Below the pieces are notes generated by a model. It did not search any database. It saw only the letters and a list, made by a program, of their open reading frames with translations, and had not been told where the DNA came from. 64,000 bases of DNA from the NCBI RefSeq assembly GCF_019635935.1, contig NZ_JAHBYN010000001.1, positions 124,001 through 188,000 on the forward strand, in the 5' to 3' direction. The translations under genes were made by a program, and so were the position numbers. Shown piece after piece: positions 1,202 to 9,009 of the stretch (position 1 is the first letter of the stretch; the number at the start of each line of letters is the position of its first letter). The stretch is from Parvibaculum sp. Its GTDB lineage: Bacteria; Pseudomonadota; Alphaproteobacteria; Parvibaculales; Parvibaculaceae.

Positions 1202-2236
1202 ATGGCCAGGCTCCAGCCGGGAACGAAGATTCGCCTCGCCCCCGAGGACGAATATACCCACAAGCCCGATGCGGCACTGAACTATAACGAGAGCATGTAT
1301 TTCAACATGTTCGACCCGGTCCGCAAGACCGGCGGCTGGTTCCGGCTCGGCAATCGCCCCAACGAGGGCTACGCCGAAATGTCCAACTGCCTCTATCTGC
1401 CGGATGGTCGCGTTGCCTTTATGTATGCCCGGCCGAAAATCACCGGCAACGAGGCGATGAATGCCGGCGGCATGAAGTTCGAGGTCGTCGAGCCGTTCAA
1501 ACGCCTCCGTCTGTCCTACAGCGGAAATGTTGTGGTTCTGAAGAATCCGCTTGAAATGGCCGACCCGGCGCAAGCCTTCAAGAACAACCCCGTCGTCCCC
1601 TGCGAGGTCGCCCTCGACTATGAAGGCGTATCACCGATGTTCGGCGGCGAGACCGTCAATGCGGACGGCACGCCGCTCGACCTCGACCCGGAAAAGTCGT
1701 TCGCCAAGGCTCACTACGAACAGCACATGGCGGCCAGCGGCCACTTCACCGTTGGCGAGGAGCGCTTCGAGGTCTCGGGCTTTGGCCTCCGCGACAAGAG
1801 CTGGGGGCCGCGTTACTGGCAGGCAATCCACTGGTACCGCTGGCTGCCGATGAATTTTGGCCGTGACTTCGGGATGATGATCTCGATTGTCACCAACGAC
1901 GAAGGCAAACAGCGCCAGGGTGGCATGGTGCTGAAGGACGGGGTGTACGATCTGATCGAAACCTGCACGATCGAGAGCGACTGGGACGACAACTGGTACC
2001 AGACCGCGCTCCGCGCCCATTTGACCACCCAATCGGGCGCCGCATACGACGTCGAGGGTAAGGTCTTGTCGTTGATCCCGTTGCGCAATCGTCGCAAGGC
2101 GCCCGATGGCAGCGATCTCAACACCCGCATCACCGAAGGCATGACGGAATATCGCTGCAACGGCATGACCGGCTACGGTCTGTCGGAATATCTCGACCAG
2201 ATTGTCGACGGCAAGCCTGTGGGCGCGGGGCACTGA
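1202..2236 (+). CDS. DUF7064/DUF7065-type (AttH/CrtC-like beta-barrel) protein
   Basis: A 344-residue soluble protein without signal peptide. The pattern YNESMYFNMFDPVRKTGGW near the N-terminus and GLRDKSWGPRYWQ near residue 197 are what I associate with the DUF7065/DUF7064 pair, relatives of the AttH/CrtC lipocalin-like fold that binds or hydrates terpenoid and other hydrophobic substrates. The activity is not known; a lipid- or terpenoid-binding or hydratase role is inference from the fold and from the neighbours (phosphotransferase, DUF6285, lipase-like, enoyl-CoA hydratase). The start is supported by AAGGGAGAAG seven bases upstream. It heads a tightly packed five-gene cluster. Confidence 0.75.
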   Translation: MARLQPGTKIRLAPEDEYTHKPDAALNYNESMYFNMFDPVRKTGGWFRLGNRPNEGYAEMSNCLYLPDGRVAFMYARPKITGNEAMNAGGMKFEVVEPFKRLRLSYSGNVVVLKNPLEMADPAQAFKNNPVVPCEVALDYEGVSPMFGGETVNADGTPLDLDPEKSFAKAHYEQHMAASGHFTVGEERFEVSGFGLRDKSWGPRYWQAIHWYRWLPMNFGRDFGMMISIVTNDEGKQRQGGMVLKDGVYDLIETCTIESDWDDNWYQTALRAHLTTQSGAAYDVEGKVLSLIPLRNRRKAPDGSDLNTRITEGMTEYRCNGMTGYGLSEYLDQIVDGKPVGAGH

Positions 2237-2237
2237 C

Positions 2238-3242
2238 ATGGGCGCCGAAGCGAACCCGTTATCCGAACCCCTTTCGGCGGTGGTGTGCAACCGGATTCCG
2301 GGCGCAACGGGAATATCGAATCTGAAACGACTTTCCGGCGGCGCAAGCCAGGAAACCTGGTCGTTCGATGCCGCAACCGCCGATGGCGTCGTACCGCTTA
2401 TTTTGCGCCGCGCGCCGGGTGGCGCCCGCGATGCGCGCGCCACGGCCGTGCCGCTCGAAACCGAAGCACAGCTGATCCAGTTGGCCGGAAAAGTCGATGT
2501 GCCGGTGCCGACGGTCCGCCATGTGCTGGCACCCGAAGACGGTCTCGGTCACGGCTTCATCATGGACCGCATCGCCGGGGAAACGATCGCGCGGAAAATC
2601 CTGCGCGACGACGAGTTTGCGGCCGCCCGGCCAAAACTTGCGCGCCAATGCGGCGAAATCCTCGCGCGGCTGCACCGTGTCGACATGGCGGCATTGCCGC
2701 CACTGCGCACATCACCCGCGCGCAGCGAGATCAAGCAATATCTGGAAACCTACAAGGCGCATGGGCACCCCCATCCGGTTTTCGAGCTCGCCTTTCGCTG
2801 GCTCCAGGACAACGCGCCCCCCGAAGCCACGGCGCACACGCTGGTGCATGGCGACTTTCGCCACGGCAATCTGATGATCGGGCCGGACGGGGTGCGCGCC
2901 GTCCTCGATTGGGAACTGGCGCATGTCGGCGATCCGATGGAAGACCTTGGCTGGATATGCGTCAACTCATGGCGGTTCGGTAACATCGACCAGCCGGTGG
3001 GCGGTTTCGGCGCGCGCGAGGATATGTTCGCTGGATATGAGGCCGCGGGCGGCATCAAGGTCGATCCGGCGCGCGTCAAGTTCTGGGAAGTGCTGGGGAC
3101 GCTGAAATGGGGCGTGATGTGCACCATCATGGTCACGGCCTTCAAGAGCGGCACGGACCGGTCTGTCGAGCGGGCGACCATCGGCCGCCGTTCGTCGGAA
3201 ACCGAAGTGGATCTGCTGCGCCTTCTGGCGCCGCGCGGCTGA
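2238..3242 (+). CDS. APH/ACAD10-type phosphotransferase (LvaA-like, possible 4-hydroxyacyl-CoA kinase)
   Basis: The 334-residue product has the aminoglycoside-phosphotransferase kinase fold: the catalytic loop HGDFRHGN is at residues 204-211 (general base D206) and the metal-binding DWE at 224-226. This subfamily, also present as the kinase domain of human ACAD10/11, is not tied to antibiotics; in Pseudomonas levulinate catabolism the relative LvaA phosphorylates 4-hydroxyvaleryl-CoA. The adjacent DUF6285 gene would correspond to its partner LvaB. An acyl-CoA 4-hydroxyl kinase role is therefore inferred, not shown. ATG 2238 starts one base after the preceding stop; the frame is open further upstream but would overlap that gene. 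Confidence 0.82.
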   Translation: MGAEANPLSEPLSAVVCNRIPGATGISNLKRLSGGASQETWSFDAATADGVVPLILRRAPGGARDARATAVPLETEAQLIQLAGKVDVPVPTVRHVLAPEDGLGHGFIMDRIAGETIARKILRDDEFAAARPKLARQCGEILARLHRVDMAALPPLRTSPARSEIKQYLETYKAHGHPHPVFELAFRWLQDNAPPEATAHTLVHGDFRHGNLMIGPDGVRAVLDWELAHVGDPMEDLGWICVNSWRFGNIDQPVGGFGAREDMFAGYEAAGGIKVDPARVKFWEVLGTLKWGVMCTIMVTAFKSGTDRSVERATIGRRSSETEVDLLRLLAPRG

Positions 3243-3252
3243 GGAGAAACAC

Positions 3253-3630
3253 ATGCAGGATCAACCGACAGCCGCCGAACTTGTCGAAGCCGTCGCAGAG
3301 TTCATTCGCAATCACGCGATGCCGCAGCTTCAGGGTCACACCGCCTTTCATGCCCGTGTCGCGGCAAATGCGCTGGACATCGTCAAACGCGAGCTCGAAA
3401 TAGCGCCCGCAGCCAATGCCGGCGAAGAAGCGCGGCTCAAGGCGTTGCTTGGCCGCGAAGGAGCGCTGGAGGATCTCAATCGTGAGCTGTGCAAGCGCAT
3501 CGAAAGTGGCACCATCGGTCTCGAAACGCCGGGTCTGACCGATCATCTCTGGACGACAACGCTGACCAAGCTCGCAATCGACCAGCCAAACTATTCGGGC
3601 TACAAGCGTGCGGTCGAAGAAAGCCGATGA
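3253..3630 (+). CDS. DUF6285 protein (LvaB-like partner of the phosphotransferase)
   Basis: A 125-residue, highly charged, probably all-helical protein that I recognise as DUF6285. Genes of this family normally sit directly beside an APH/ACAD10-type phosphotransferase, and the small LvaB protein required with LvaA in levulinate breakdown is of this size and position. Features include LVEAVAEFIRNHAMPQL at the N-terminus and a C-terminal LWTTTLTKLAIDQPNYSGY. A GAGGAGAAACAC ribosome-binding sequence precedes the ATG and the gap to the kinase gene is 10 bp. A subunit or activator role is inference from context; no catalytic motif is visible. Confidence 0.8.
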   Translation: MQDQPTAAELVEAVAEFIRNHAMPQLQGHTAFHARVAANALDIVKRELEIAPAANAGEEARLKALLGREGALEDLNRELCKRIESGTIGLETPGLTDHLWTTTLTKLAIDQPNYSGYKRAVEESR

Positions 3631-6285: not shown

Positions 6286-7488
6286 TCAGGCGCCGTGCGC
6301 ACCGATGATCGTCACCGAGCAGACATTCTGCGACGGAGCGCCGCCGAGATTGTGCGTCAAACCAATCTTCGGATTGGCAAGTTGCCGCTCGCCGGCACGA
6401 CCCTGGAGCTGGAGATACATCTCGTAGGCCATGCGCAGGCCCGAAGCGCCGATCGGGTGTCCAAAGCATTTGAGCCCCCCGTCGATCTGGCAGGGAACCT
6501 TTCCGTCCGCGTCGTAGAAACCGTCCATAACGTCCTTCACGGCGCCGCCTTCCGGCGAGATGAAGAGGTCTTCCATGGTCACAAGTTCAGTGATGGAGAA
6601 GCAGTCATGCACTTCCATCATGCTGACTTCCTCGCGCGGATTGTCGATCCCGGCCTCCTTGTAGGCTTTCTTGGCCGCGATCCGCGCGGTGTGGAAATAG
6701 CTTCCATCCCAGCTGTTATGCTGCGACTCGAGCCCGTTCGACACGGATAGCTGCATCGCCTTCACAGTCACGATATTGCTCTTGCCCATCGCTTTGGCGA
6801 TTTCGGGCGTCGTGACGATGGCCGCCGCCGCGCCGTCCGACACGCCGCAGCAGTCGAAAAGTCCAAGCGGTTCGGCAATCATCGGCGCGCCCATGACCTG
6901 CTCCTCGGTCACGGGATTGCGCAGGTGAGCCTTGGGGTTCTTGGCGCCGTTGGCGTGGCTCTTGACCGAAACATGAGCGATGGCGCGCTTCAGATCGTCC
7001 TTGTTGACGCCATGCTTGGCCCGGTAAGCCGAGGCCAGCTGCGCGAAGTTGCCCGGCGCTGAACCGGACGGCGACCATTGCGGGTTCAACGTACCCATGT
7101 TGCCGACAGGCAGGCCGCCATAACCGGTGTCTTTCAGCTTCTCGACGCCGACTGCAAGCGCGATGTCGGCCGCTCCCGAAGCAACAGCATAGACCGCGCC
7201 GCGCAATGCCTCGGAACCCGAGGCGCAGAAGTTCTCGACGCGTGTGACCGCGATATTGGGAAGCCGCAACGCCACCGAAAGCGGCGTACCGCCCTTGCCG
7301 GTGCCGATTTCATCGATATGGGTCGAGAACCACGCCGCATCGAGCTGCGTCGGCTCAATGCCCGCATCCTGCATCGCTTCGAGATAGGCTTCGACCATCA
7401 ACTCTTCAGGGCCGGCGTCCCATCGCTCGCCGAACTTCGAGCACCCCATGCCGAGGATCGCGACCTTGTCCTTGATACCTGCCGCCAT
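6286..7488 (-). CDS. Thiolase family protein (SCP2/SCPx-type acetyl-CoA acetyltransferase)
   Basis: A 400-residue thiolase of the SCPx/lipid-transfer type, acting on acyl-CoA thioesters either in thiolysis or as a retro-aldolase. The nucleophile is C88 in NFCASGS; the second active-site elements VHDCFSITEL and CFGHPIGASGLR near the C-terminus are intact, and GLTHNLGG closes the family pattern. This group commonly works together with a DUF35/OB-fold protein, and the gene upstream (12 bp gap) encodes an HMGCS-like/DUF35 fusion, so a two-component complex is likely. A GGGAGACAGGGAC sequence lies before the ATG. The carbon substrate cannot be read from sequence; sterol side chain, branched acyl or acetoacetyl-CoA are all possible. 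Confidence 0.88.
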   Translation of the reverse strand: MAAGIKDKVAILGMGCSKFGERWDAGPEELMVEAYLEAMQDAGIEPTQLDAAWFSTHIDEIGTGKGGTPLSVALRLPNIAVTRVENFCASGSEALRGAVYAVASGAADIALAVGVEKLKDTGYGGLPVGNMGTLNPQWSPSGSAPGNFAQLASAYRAKHGVNKDDLKRAIAHVSVKSHANGAKNPKAHLRNPVTEEQVMGAPMIAEPLGLFDCCGVSDGAAAAIVTTPEIAKAMGKSNIVTVKAMQLSVSNGLESQHNSWDGSYFHTARIAAKKAYKEAGIDNPREEVSMMEVHDCFSITELVTMEDLFISPEGGAVKDVMDGFYDADGKVPCQIDGGLKCFGHPIGASGLRMAYEMYLQLQGRAGERQLANPKIGLTHNLGGAPSQNVCSVTIIGAHGA

Positions 7489-7500
7489 GTCCCTGTCTCC

Positions 7501-9009
7501 CTACTCGGCCGCCTGGCCTGTTTGTGATTTCGCCGCGCTCGCCGCAATCGGCACCGCTTTCCAGAAATAGCGCCGGAAACCGCGCTTGTCGTCGAATTCC
7601 TTAATCCGGAACACGAGCTTCACTTCCATGCCGGAATCGACCGTCCCGGTCTCGACATCGGTGAAATCCATCATGATCCGGCCGCCCTCGTCGAACACCA
7701 CCATGCCGTAGTGATTGGGCGGGTTCATGCTGAAGGACAGGAAGTCGGCCGACCAGGACAGGATCTTCGCCTTCCGATCGGCAAACTTGTATGGCTCCTG
7801 CGTATCGACCGTATGGTTGTTCGGATTGACCGAAATACGCGAGCGCGGGAACTGGACGACGCCGGTTTCCTTGCAGCGACCGCCGACAAGGCCCATCAGC
7901 ATGTCCTCGTTGCGATAAAGCGTCGTCAGCGCCGTCTTCTTGTCCTGCTCGGCGCGCATGCCTTTTTCCCATTCAACGAGCCCGTTGAAGGTGAGGAACT
8001 TCATGTAGTTGGTTTCCTCGACGCGCGCGGCCAGTGAGCCGACGATGCCGCGCTTTCCCGCCTGGCTGGCGATCTTGTCGGTCACCTCGAAAACCAGCGC
8101 GTCGCAGCCACCGCCAAAATGCAGCACCAGAACCTTGTCACCGGGCTTCGCTTCCTTCTGGAGCGTATGCACCAGCATGACCAGCGCATGCGCGGCGCCG
8201 GTCTCGCCGCAATTCAGCGCCAGCGTGTCGCGCGCAACCTCGGGTGCGATACCCGAGCGCTTGGCAAGCTGTTGTGCGAACTTGTCTCCGAAGATGCACG
8301 GAAGAACAAAATGCTTTATATCTCCGGCGCTTACGCCTGACTTCTCAAGTGCCGCCTTGACGGCCCGCGGAACGATTTTCGCGAAGCCCTCATCGCGGAT
8401 CCAGCGTTCTTCCCAGTTGTAGTCGAACTCCTCGGTATCGCCCTTGAAGTGGTCGACGAAATCGATGGTGAGGCTTGCGCCGCCGAGATAAGTGGCGATC
8501 ACGTTTTCCGCGCCGACCATCACGGCGGCGGCGCCATCGCCGAAATCGAGTTCCTGCGAGGTGACCGCCTTGGTCTTGCGGCGGTCCGCTGCCAGCACGA
8601 CGGCGTTTCGCGCCTCGCCACCTTTCACGGCGGCCAGCGCCTGCATCAATGCCGACGTGTCGGCACGCTGCGTCGAGGCAACGTCCACCGCGCGCACATT
8701 TTCATCGAGCGTCAGTGCCGCGGCGATGATGCCGCTGTTGAGACGATCCTTGAACGGCATCGAAGTGGATCCGAAATAGAGCGCATCGACATGGCTCCGG
8801 TCGTCGCCGGCACCGAGCAGGTCGCGCCCCGCTTCCACCGCCATCGTGATCGCATCTTCATCCCAGTTGGCCATGGAGCGCTCGCCCTTCCCCTTTCCGA
8901 GAAAGTTGGGAGCAATCCATGCATTGGCCTGGGCAACGGCCTTGCGCTGCAGCCGAAGGCGGGGGACATAGCCGCCAAAGCCTGTAATTCCGACCGCTTG
9001 CTGGGCCAT
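7501..9009 (-). CDS. HMG-CoA-synthase-like/DUF35 (OB-fold) fusion lacking HMGCS catalytic residues
   Basis: A 502-residue two-part protein. Residues 1 to about 335 follow the HMG-CoA synthase/KAS III fold (GITGFGGYVPRLRL, LDFGDGAAAVMVG, ALNCGETGAAHAL, LHFGGGCDALVF); about 345-490 resemble the DUF35 rubredoxin/OB-fold protein (VGGRCKETG, LSWSADFLSFSMNPPNHYGMV, VKLVFR). By eye alignment to MvaS, the catalytic Glu, Cys and His fall at T82, Q114 and V235, so ordinary HMG-CoA synthesis is unlikely. The DUF35 zinc ribbon keeps one of four cysteines. Start supported by GGGAGACGA. It is the first gene of a two-gene operon with the thiolase and may be a scaffold or a non-canonical enzyme. Confidence 0.8.
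   Translation of the reverse strand: MAQQAVGITGFGGYVPRLRLQRKAVAQANAWIAPNFLGKGKGERSMANWDEDAITMAVEAGRDLLGAGDDRSHVDALYFGSTSMPFKDRLNSGIIAAALTLDENVRAVDVASTQRADTSALMQALAAVKGGEARNAVVLAADRRKTKAVTSQELDFGDGAAAVMVGAENVIATYLGGASLTIDFVDHFKGDTEEFDYNWEERWIRDEGFAKIVPRAVKAALEKSGVSAGDIKHFVLPCIFGDKFAQQLAKRSGIAPEVARDTLALNCGETGAAHALVMLVHTLQKEAKPGDKVLVLHFGGGCDALVFEVTDKIASQAGKRGIVGSLAARVEETNYMKFLTFNGLVEWEKGMRAEQDKKTALTTLYRNEDMLMGLVGGRCKETGVVQFPRSRISVNPNNHTVDTQEPYKFADRKAKILSWSADFLSFSMNPPNHYGMVVFDEGGRIMMDFTDVETGTVDSGMEVKLVFRIKEFDDKRGFRRYFWKAVPIAASAAKSQTGQAAE

Follow-up and report, generated by a model that had tools for sequence, protein, structure and literature searches.

Both a dead HMG-CoA synthase (HMGCS)-like subunit, for which PhlA is the precedent, and the kind of complex that houses it have been described in published work. 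In PhlABC, the 2,4-diacetylphloroglucinol acyltransferase, the thiolase PhlC is the sole catalytic subunit and PhlA is without the Cys and Glu of the active site; the assembled enzyme is believed to need both PhlA and PhlB, and a single cavity in it is lined by all three subunits (PMC6392133). A paper of 2010 had PhlA as an inactive member of the thiolase superfamily placed beside an active one and a DUF35 protein (PMC2954200). The archaeal acetoacetyl-CoA thiolase/HMGCS/DUF35 complex (6ESQ) contains an HMGCS with catalytic Glu82 and Cys114 (PMC6392133); a single CoA site there serves both the thiolase and the HMGCS, and DUF35 holds the two together (PMC12329534). What is new at the locus analysed here is a widespread fused form of these parts, with at least three independent changes of the zinc ribbon in its family.

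The locus lies in a window of 64,000 nucleotides, the whole stretch of DNA that was analysed, from a Parvibaculum sp. genome of 3.72 Mb in 13 contigs. It comprises a gene that fuses an HMGCS/PhlA-like domain to DUF35 and a gene for an SCP2-type thiolase (Table 1). As in PhlABC (5M3K/5MG5), a dead HMGCS-like part, judged here by its residues to be without Cys and Glu, occurs with DUF35 and with an intact thiolase alongside; PhlABC consists of three separate chains rather than one fused chain and a thiolase, has Gly where the window protein has Gln at the Cys position, and is a C-acyltransferase of antibiotic synthesis, whereas the gene context of the relatives here points to thiolysis. The 6ESQ complex has all three components in common with the locus, the closest fold and a close thiolase, but its HMGCS is active, its chains are separate and it belongs to the mevalonate pathway, whereas the version here is dead and fused and no HMG-CoA reductase was found in the window genome. 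MucABC of Streptococcus macacae (9VBO) is a multi-component acyltransferase with a PhlA-like chain that has Glu at the Cys position; its chains are separate, its identity to the fusion is 20% and it serves another pathway. BbsAB, the benzoylsuccinyl-CoA thiolase (7PXP), pairs a degradative thiolase, which matches that of the window at 7e-43, with a DUF35 partner. Unlike the fusion, BbsAB is not known to have an HMGCS-like domain. In the steroid side-chain aldolases Ltp2-ChsH2 and Sal-Shy a thiolase-fold enzyme is held by DUF35, as we propose here, although these aldolases have a YDCY or YDHF motif where the window thiolase keeps HDCF and a nucleophilic Cys, and in Shy the fusion partner of DUF35 is a MaoC hydratase instead of an HMGCS-like domain (PMC12329534).

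Table 1. Features of the fusion-thiolase locus and its neighbours (positions in the window)
Feature	Position	Strand	Remarks
Fusion gene, HMGCS/PhlA-like + DUF35 (OB-fold)	7501..9009	-	502 aa, ATG start
HMGCS/PhlA-like KAS III-fold domain, residues 4-345	7975..9000	-	Structural alignment to 6ESQ chain I
Linker, residues 346-372	7894..7974	-	Highly conserved; low-confidence in monomer model; suggested partner-binding segment
DUF35 part, residues 373-490	7540..7893	-	Degenerate ribbon (C379 only), then OB-fold
Degenerate DUF35 zinc ribbon	7797-7893	-	Ligand positions are a conserved Cys-Thr-Ser-Asn/Asp set in the window's clade
T82 codon, HMGCS catalytic Glu position	8764..8766	-	T in 107/108 homologues
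Q114 codon, HMGCS catalytic Cys position	8668..8670	-	Q 89, L 14, M 3, R 1, I 1 of 108
P237 codon, HMGCS catalytic His position	8299..8301	-	P in 106/108 homologues
Partner thiolase, SCP2 type (PRK06157)	6286..7488	-	400 aa; NF004810 718 bits, cut-off 403
DUF6285 gene	3253..3630	+	Convergent to the pair; association only
APH-family kinase gene	2238..3242	+	Pfam PF01636; adjoins DUF6285; association only
DUF7064/DUF7065 protein	1202-2236	+	Beside the kinase unit in Parvibaculum loci; not detected in other loci

The ORF is real. The fusion is a conserved gene, because over its full length it is 80-94% identical in most other Parvibaculum genomes, with 94% in the nearest named relatives, and about 70-73% identical in other genera of the Parvibaculaceae. 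Pfam finds both KAS III domains in the protein, the N-terminal one only just above the cut-off, and the OB-fold of ChsH2/DUF35 (PF01796) above the cut-off at the C-terminus, while the zinc-ribbon model stays under it; a sequence search matches the DUF35 part to the DUF35 chain of 6ESQ at 9.6e-6. The best NCBIfam model, HMG-CoA synthase PRK04262, scores 185.5 bits against a cut-off of 244, and TIGR00748 scores 125 bits against 353, so that both fall below. The top PDB sequence matches are 9SKH (PhlA type), the 6ESQ HMGCS, 5M3K PhlA and 9VBO. Members of the family appear in public records as 'HMG-CoA synthase', 'OB-fold domain-containing protein' and '3-oxoacyl-ACP synthase III C-terminal domain protein'; such names should not be taken to mean that the genes belong to mevalonate or fatty-acid pathways. 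Apparent 916-aa HMGCS-thiolase fusions at two loci (L017 and L076) are an artefact of a stop codon read through, and are not real.

Residue columns were set by alignment to the archaeal HMGCS of 6ESQ, two PhlA proteins and 9VBO, and conservation was counted over 108 distinct near homologues, with 22 more distant members taken separately. The original prediction had placed the catalytic Glu and Cys positions by eye at T82 and Q114, and alignment to the 6ESQ HMGCS bears out both; it was also right that the His is lost, but its V235 lies two residues away from the correct column, P237. Of the T/Q/V set that it put forward, T82 is almost fixed among the homologues (107/108), whereas position 114 is variable, with 14 changes on the family tree, and the third member is P237. 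The more distant members have Q, L, R, A, P or T at position 114, and Cys was found there in none of the 108 near homologues or the 22 distant ones. By these alignments the triad loss is common to the whole family and no quirk of the window genome, and Gln at 114 is not a required residue, because T82 and P237 are nearly fixed while position 114 varies and never holds Cys. In a sphingomonad branch with Arg at 114, most members have His at 237. A replacement nucleophile was sought among the cysteines of the HMGCS-like domain, and C238, C267 and C302 all vary in the homologue alignment, none being conserved to take over the catalytic job.

The DUF35 part was likewise correctly described as lacking three of the four ribbon cysteines, the alignment leaving C379 alone. 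The window's clade reads C-x2-T-G...R-I-S-V-N-P-N with C379 as the sole Cys, a sphingomonad branch has no ribbon cysteines at all, and most members examined from other clades have four (CTACG...CVNPAC, for example), as do 36 of 62 representative relatives. Ribbon loss is thus, at the level of sequence, a lineage trait distinct from the triad loss, since most members of other clades keep the four cysteines. On a quick family tree built without the ribbon columns, several forks of which are weak, the ribbon has changed at least three times, the one-Cys state arising twice and the zero-Cys state once. In published DUF35 relatives the zinc ligands are four Cys or, in Shy, three Cys plus one His (PMC12329534), so the ligand-less ribbon is a variant beyond the relatives compared there. 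No substitute ligand is conserved. The window protein has a His at about position 401, which was considered for this role; it is not conserved either, and a metal-free ribbon therefore appears the more likely state.

A single-chain AlphaFold2 model of the fusion, made from an alignment of 50 sequences (mean pLDDT 81.5, pTM 0.86), keeps the KAS III-type fold that had been anticipated. Its best structural match is chain I of 6ESQ (Z 43.8, rmsd 2.2 over 336 residues, model residues 4-346), followed by 9SKH_A and PhlA at Z 42-43, chain A of MucABC (9VBO) at Z 40.7, MvaS-type HMG-CoA synthases at Z about 37 and FabH at Z 33-35. Residues 348-373 have pLDDT <50 in this monomer model and residues 181-200 are also poorly modelled. 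Compared with the window protein, family members show median identities of 73-78% in segments 181-210, 346-372 and 373-404, with 78% in the linker 346-372, and 55-60% in the KAS core. Higher conservation than in the KAS core, combined with poor modelling in a lone chain, would fit a folding of segments 181-210 and 346-372 on a partner.

The probable partner is encoded next door. In the window genome the fusion and the thiolase make up a two-gene unit whose neighbours are on the other strand, and the thiolase starts 12 bp downstream of the fusion stop codon on the same strand. The thiolase carries the nucleophilic Cys88, the HDCF motif with His294 and Cys296, and the GHP motif with His344, and these four residues (C88, H294, C296 and H344) are invariant in all 112 partners aligned; the HDCF Cys of SCP2 thiolases is held to be a second catalytic Cys (PMC7682436). 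Its closest PDB matches are 7YVY, the 6ESQ thiolase and the benzoylsuccinyl-CoA thiolase BbsB, and by sequence it matches the 6ESQ thiolase at 2e-54, BbsB at 7e-43 and PhlC at 1e-17. Among 289 alphaproteobacterial genomes the fusion and a thiolase above the PRK06157 cut-off occur in the same 51, and neither occurs in the other 238; the Fisher p value of 5e-58 is inflated by shared ancestry, but the match is complete all the same. In most loci the two genes are adjacent and in the same order; they lie 0.7-6.6 kb apart in 11 of 145 loci, and in a haloarchaeal relative the thiolase is upstream of the fusion. The thiolase is the more conserved of the two in 96/97 pairs, with median identities of 84% against 61% for the fusion among pairs under 65%.

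These comparisons make it quite probable that the fusion is a non-catalytic scaffold of the PhlA/PhlB kind in one chain, and a subunit of a heteromeric, probably degradative, thiolase. The HMGCS-like half would be a pseudo-enzyme of the PhlA/archaeal-HMGCS kind and the DUF35 half a PhlB-like clamp fused to it, so that by analogy the window protein corresponds to PhlA and PhlB in a single chain. It would bind the SCP2-type thiolase of the next gene, and the chemistry would fall to the thiolase alone, with Cys88 accepting the acyl group, while acid/base function and the oxyanion hole would come from His344 and from the Cys of the HDCF loop, Cys296. The complex would be held together by the dead domain and the OB-fold, which would also complete the cavity for CoA and substrate and probably select which beta-ketoacyl-CoA is accepted. 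The most likely direction in the cell is thiolysis of a special beta-ketoacyl-CoA, because relatives sit in catabolic acyl-CoA gene clusters.

The original prediction had left a choice between a scaffold, a decarboxylase-like enzyme and a new activity. The intact, strictly paired thiolase and the PhlA precedent, both of which the original prediction had missed, speak for the scaffold and the other two gain no support, although D183, D186, H187, W199-R205 and H274, invariant polar residues of the HMGCS-like domain, weigh against a scaffold pure and simple. Some of them are part of the case for a new activity of that domain, which would rely on a different set of conserved residues within or close to the former pocket. 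The set comprises T82, R115, D186/H187, W199-E207 and H274, which are nearly invariant in the 108 homologues, and T82 is retained even where position 114 varies. Several of these residues, however, fall in the poorly modelled, contact-like segments, D50-E51-D52, R202 and K/R115 also occur in HMGCS or PhlA, so they need not mean a new activity, and H187, W199 and H274 differ in distant paired members. Nothing found requires such an activity, and we regard it as improbable. The decarboxylase reading takes the Gln at the Cys position as that of a KSQ-like enzyme acting on malonyl- or methylmalonyl-CoA. As far as is known, KSQ enzymes keep their His residues. Here the catalytic His position is Pro, and Q114, present in 89/108 homologues, gives way to L, M, I or R in the other 19 and to A, P or T in distant members, with its 14 changes on the tree; because position 114 is variable and never Cys, and with the His missing, we rejected this reading as very improbable.

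The identical three-domain make-up and the closest folds would also fit a biosynthetic C-acyltransferase like PhlABC or MucABC, which transfers an acyl group to a carbon nucleophile. This seems quite improbable for the pair, given that its thiolase is nearer to those of 6ESQ and BbsAB than to PhlC, that the gene contexts of relatives are catabolic and that the pair is retained in genomes of about 1.4 Mb. The idea of a functional HMG-CoA synthase whose catalytic residues have moved elsewhere in the protein can draw on PRK04262 as the best NCBIfam model, though the score is below the cut-off; the absence of Cys, Glu and His from the expected positions, the lack of conservation of C238, C267 and C302 and the missing HMG-CoA reductase led us to discard it, and we give it virtually no chance. 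As an elaboration of the scaffold reading, the former HMGCS active site might be a substrate chamber in which the acyl moiety of an uncommon beta-ketoacyl-CoA is kept or from which it is passed on. Should the APH/DUF6285 unit nearby be a 4-hydroxyacyl-CoA kinase, this compound might be its product. On this view the specificity of a degradative thiolase would come from a dead synthase, and DUF35 would serve as a clamp without zinc. We consider this elaborated version rather unlikely.

The fusion is present in 35 of 40 genomes of the Parvibaculales and in 7 of 299 genomes elsewhere in the Pseudomonadota sample, six of the 7 being Alphaproteobacteria. Distant full-length relatives occur on betaproteobacterial plasmids (Variovorax, Azoarcus, Diaphorobacter and Paraburkholderia) and in Rhodococcus, Mycobacterium and haloarchaea. 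Neighbours of the relatives include acyl-CoA dehydrogenases, enoyl-CoA hydratases, SDRs, CoA transferases and ring-hydroxylating dioxygenases, and the context is catabolic in Variovorax, Azoarcus, Diaphorobacter, Sphingopyxis, Rhodococcus and Novosphingobium; the cluster of Novosphingobium sp. ES2-1 includes a FadD3-type ligase and an indolepyruvate ferredoxin oxidoreductase. The pair is widespread in Alphaproteobacteria and found in acyl-CoA degradation clusters of others. Genomes of about 1.4 Mb from marine bacteria in the class sample (G087, G211 and G306) retain it, which suggests steady use in streamlined bacteria. Compared with the described complexes this is a new version that is fused, zinc-poor, widely conserved and apparently catabolic, and the active archaeal enzyme, the dead PhlA and the fusion offer a natural series on the use of a dead subunit to its live partner.

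An APH-family kinase gene and a DUF6285 gene are found beside the pair in Parvibaculum, the PS1/OCS116 clade and Caulobacter. Among the close-clade loci that are not from Parvibaculum and have sufficient sequence, 41 of 44 carry DUF6285, against 0 of 22 distant loci; the kinase gene occurs in 40/44 close-clade loci, and DUF6285 is single-copy in the window genome. Some of this synteny could stem from a conserved place on the chromosome, next to housekeeping genes. DUF6285 was not named in any paper found in a literature search. In Pseudomonas, the phosphotransferase-family kinase LvaA and the 12-kDa LvaB are held to convert 4-hydroxyvaleryl-CoA to its 4-phospho form (PMC6692424), and mammalian ACAD10/11 use a kinase domain on 4-hydroxyacyl-CoAs (PMC11342911). 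By analogy, the APH-DUF6285 unit may be an LvaA/LvaB-like 4-hydroxyacyl-CoA kinase; if so, the thiolase would end a 4-hydroxy-acid route, which we offer as a lead. Three PS1/OCS116 genomes (loci L092, L093 and L131) retain both the fusion-thiolase pair and the DUF6285-APH unit. In Novosphingobium sp. ES2-1 a conjugative plasmid carries a distant version of the pair with 30% identity (locus L166, 9001-11555), whose surroundings also hold a second lipid-transfer-protein/OB-fold pair.
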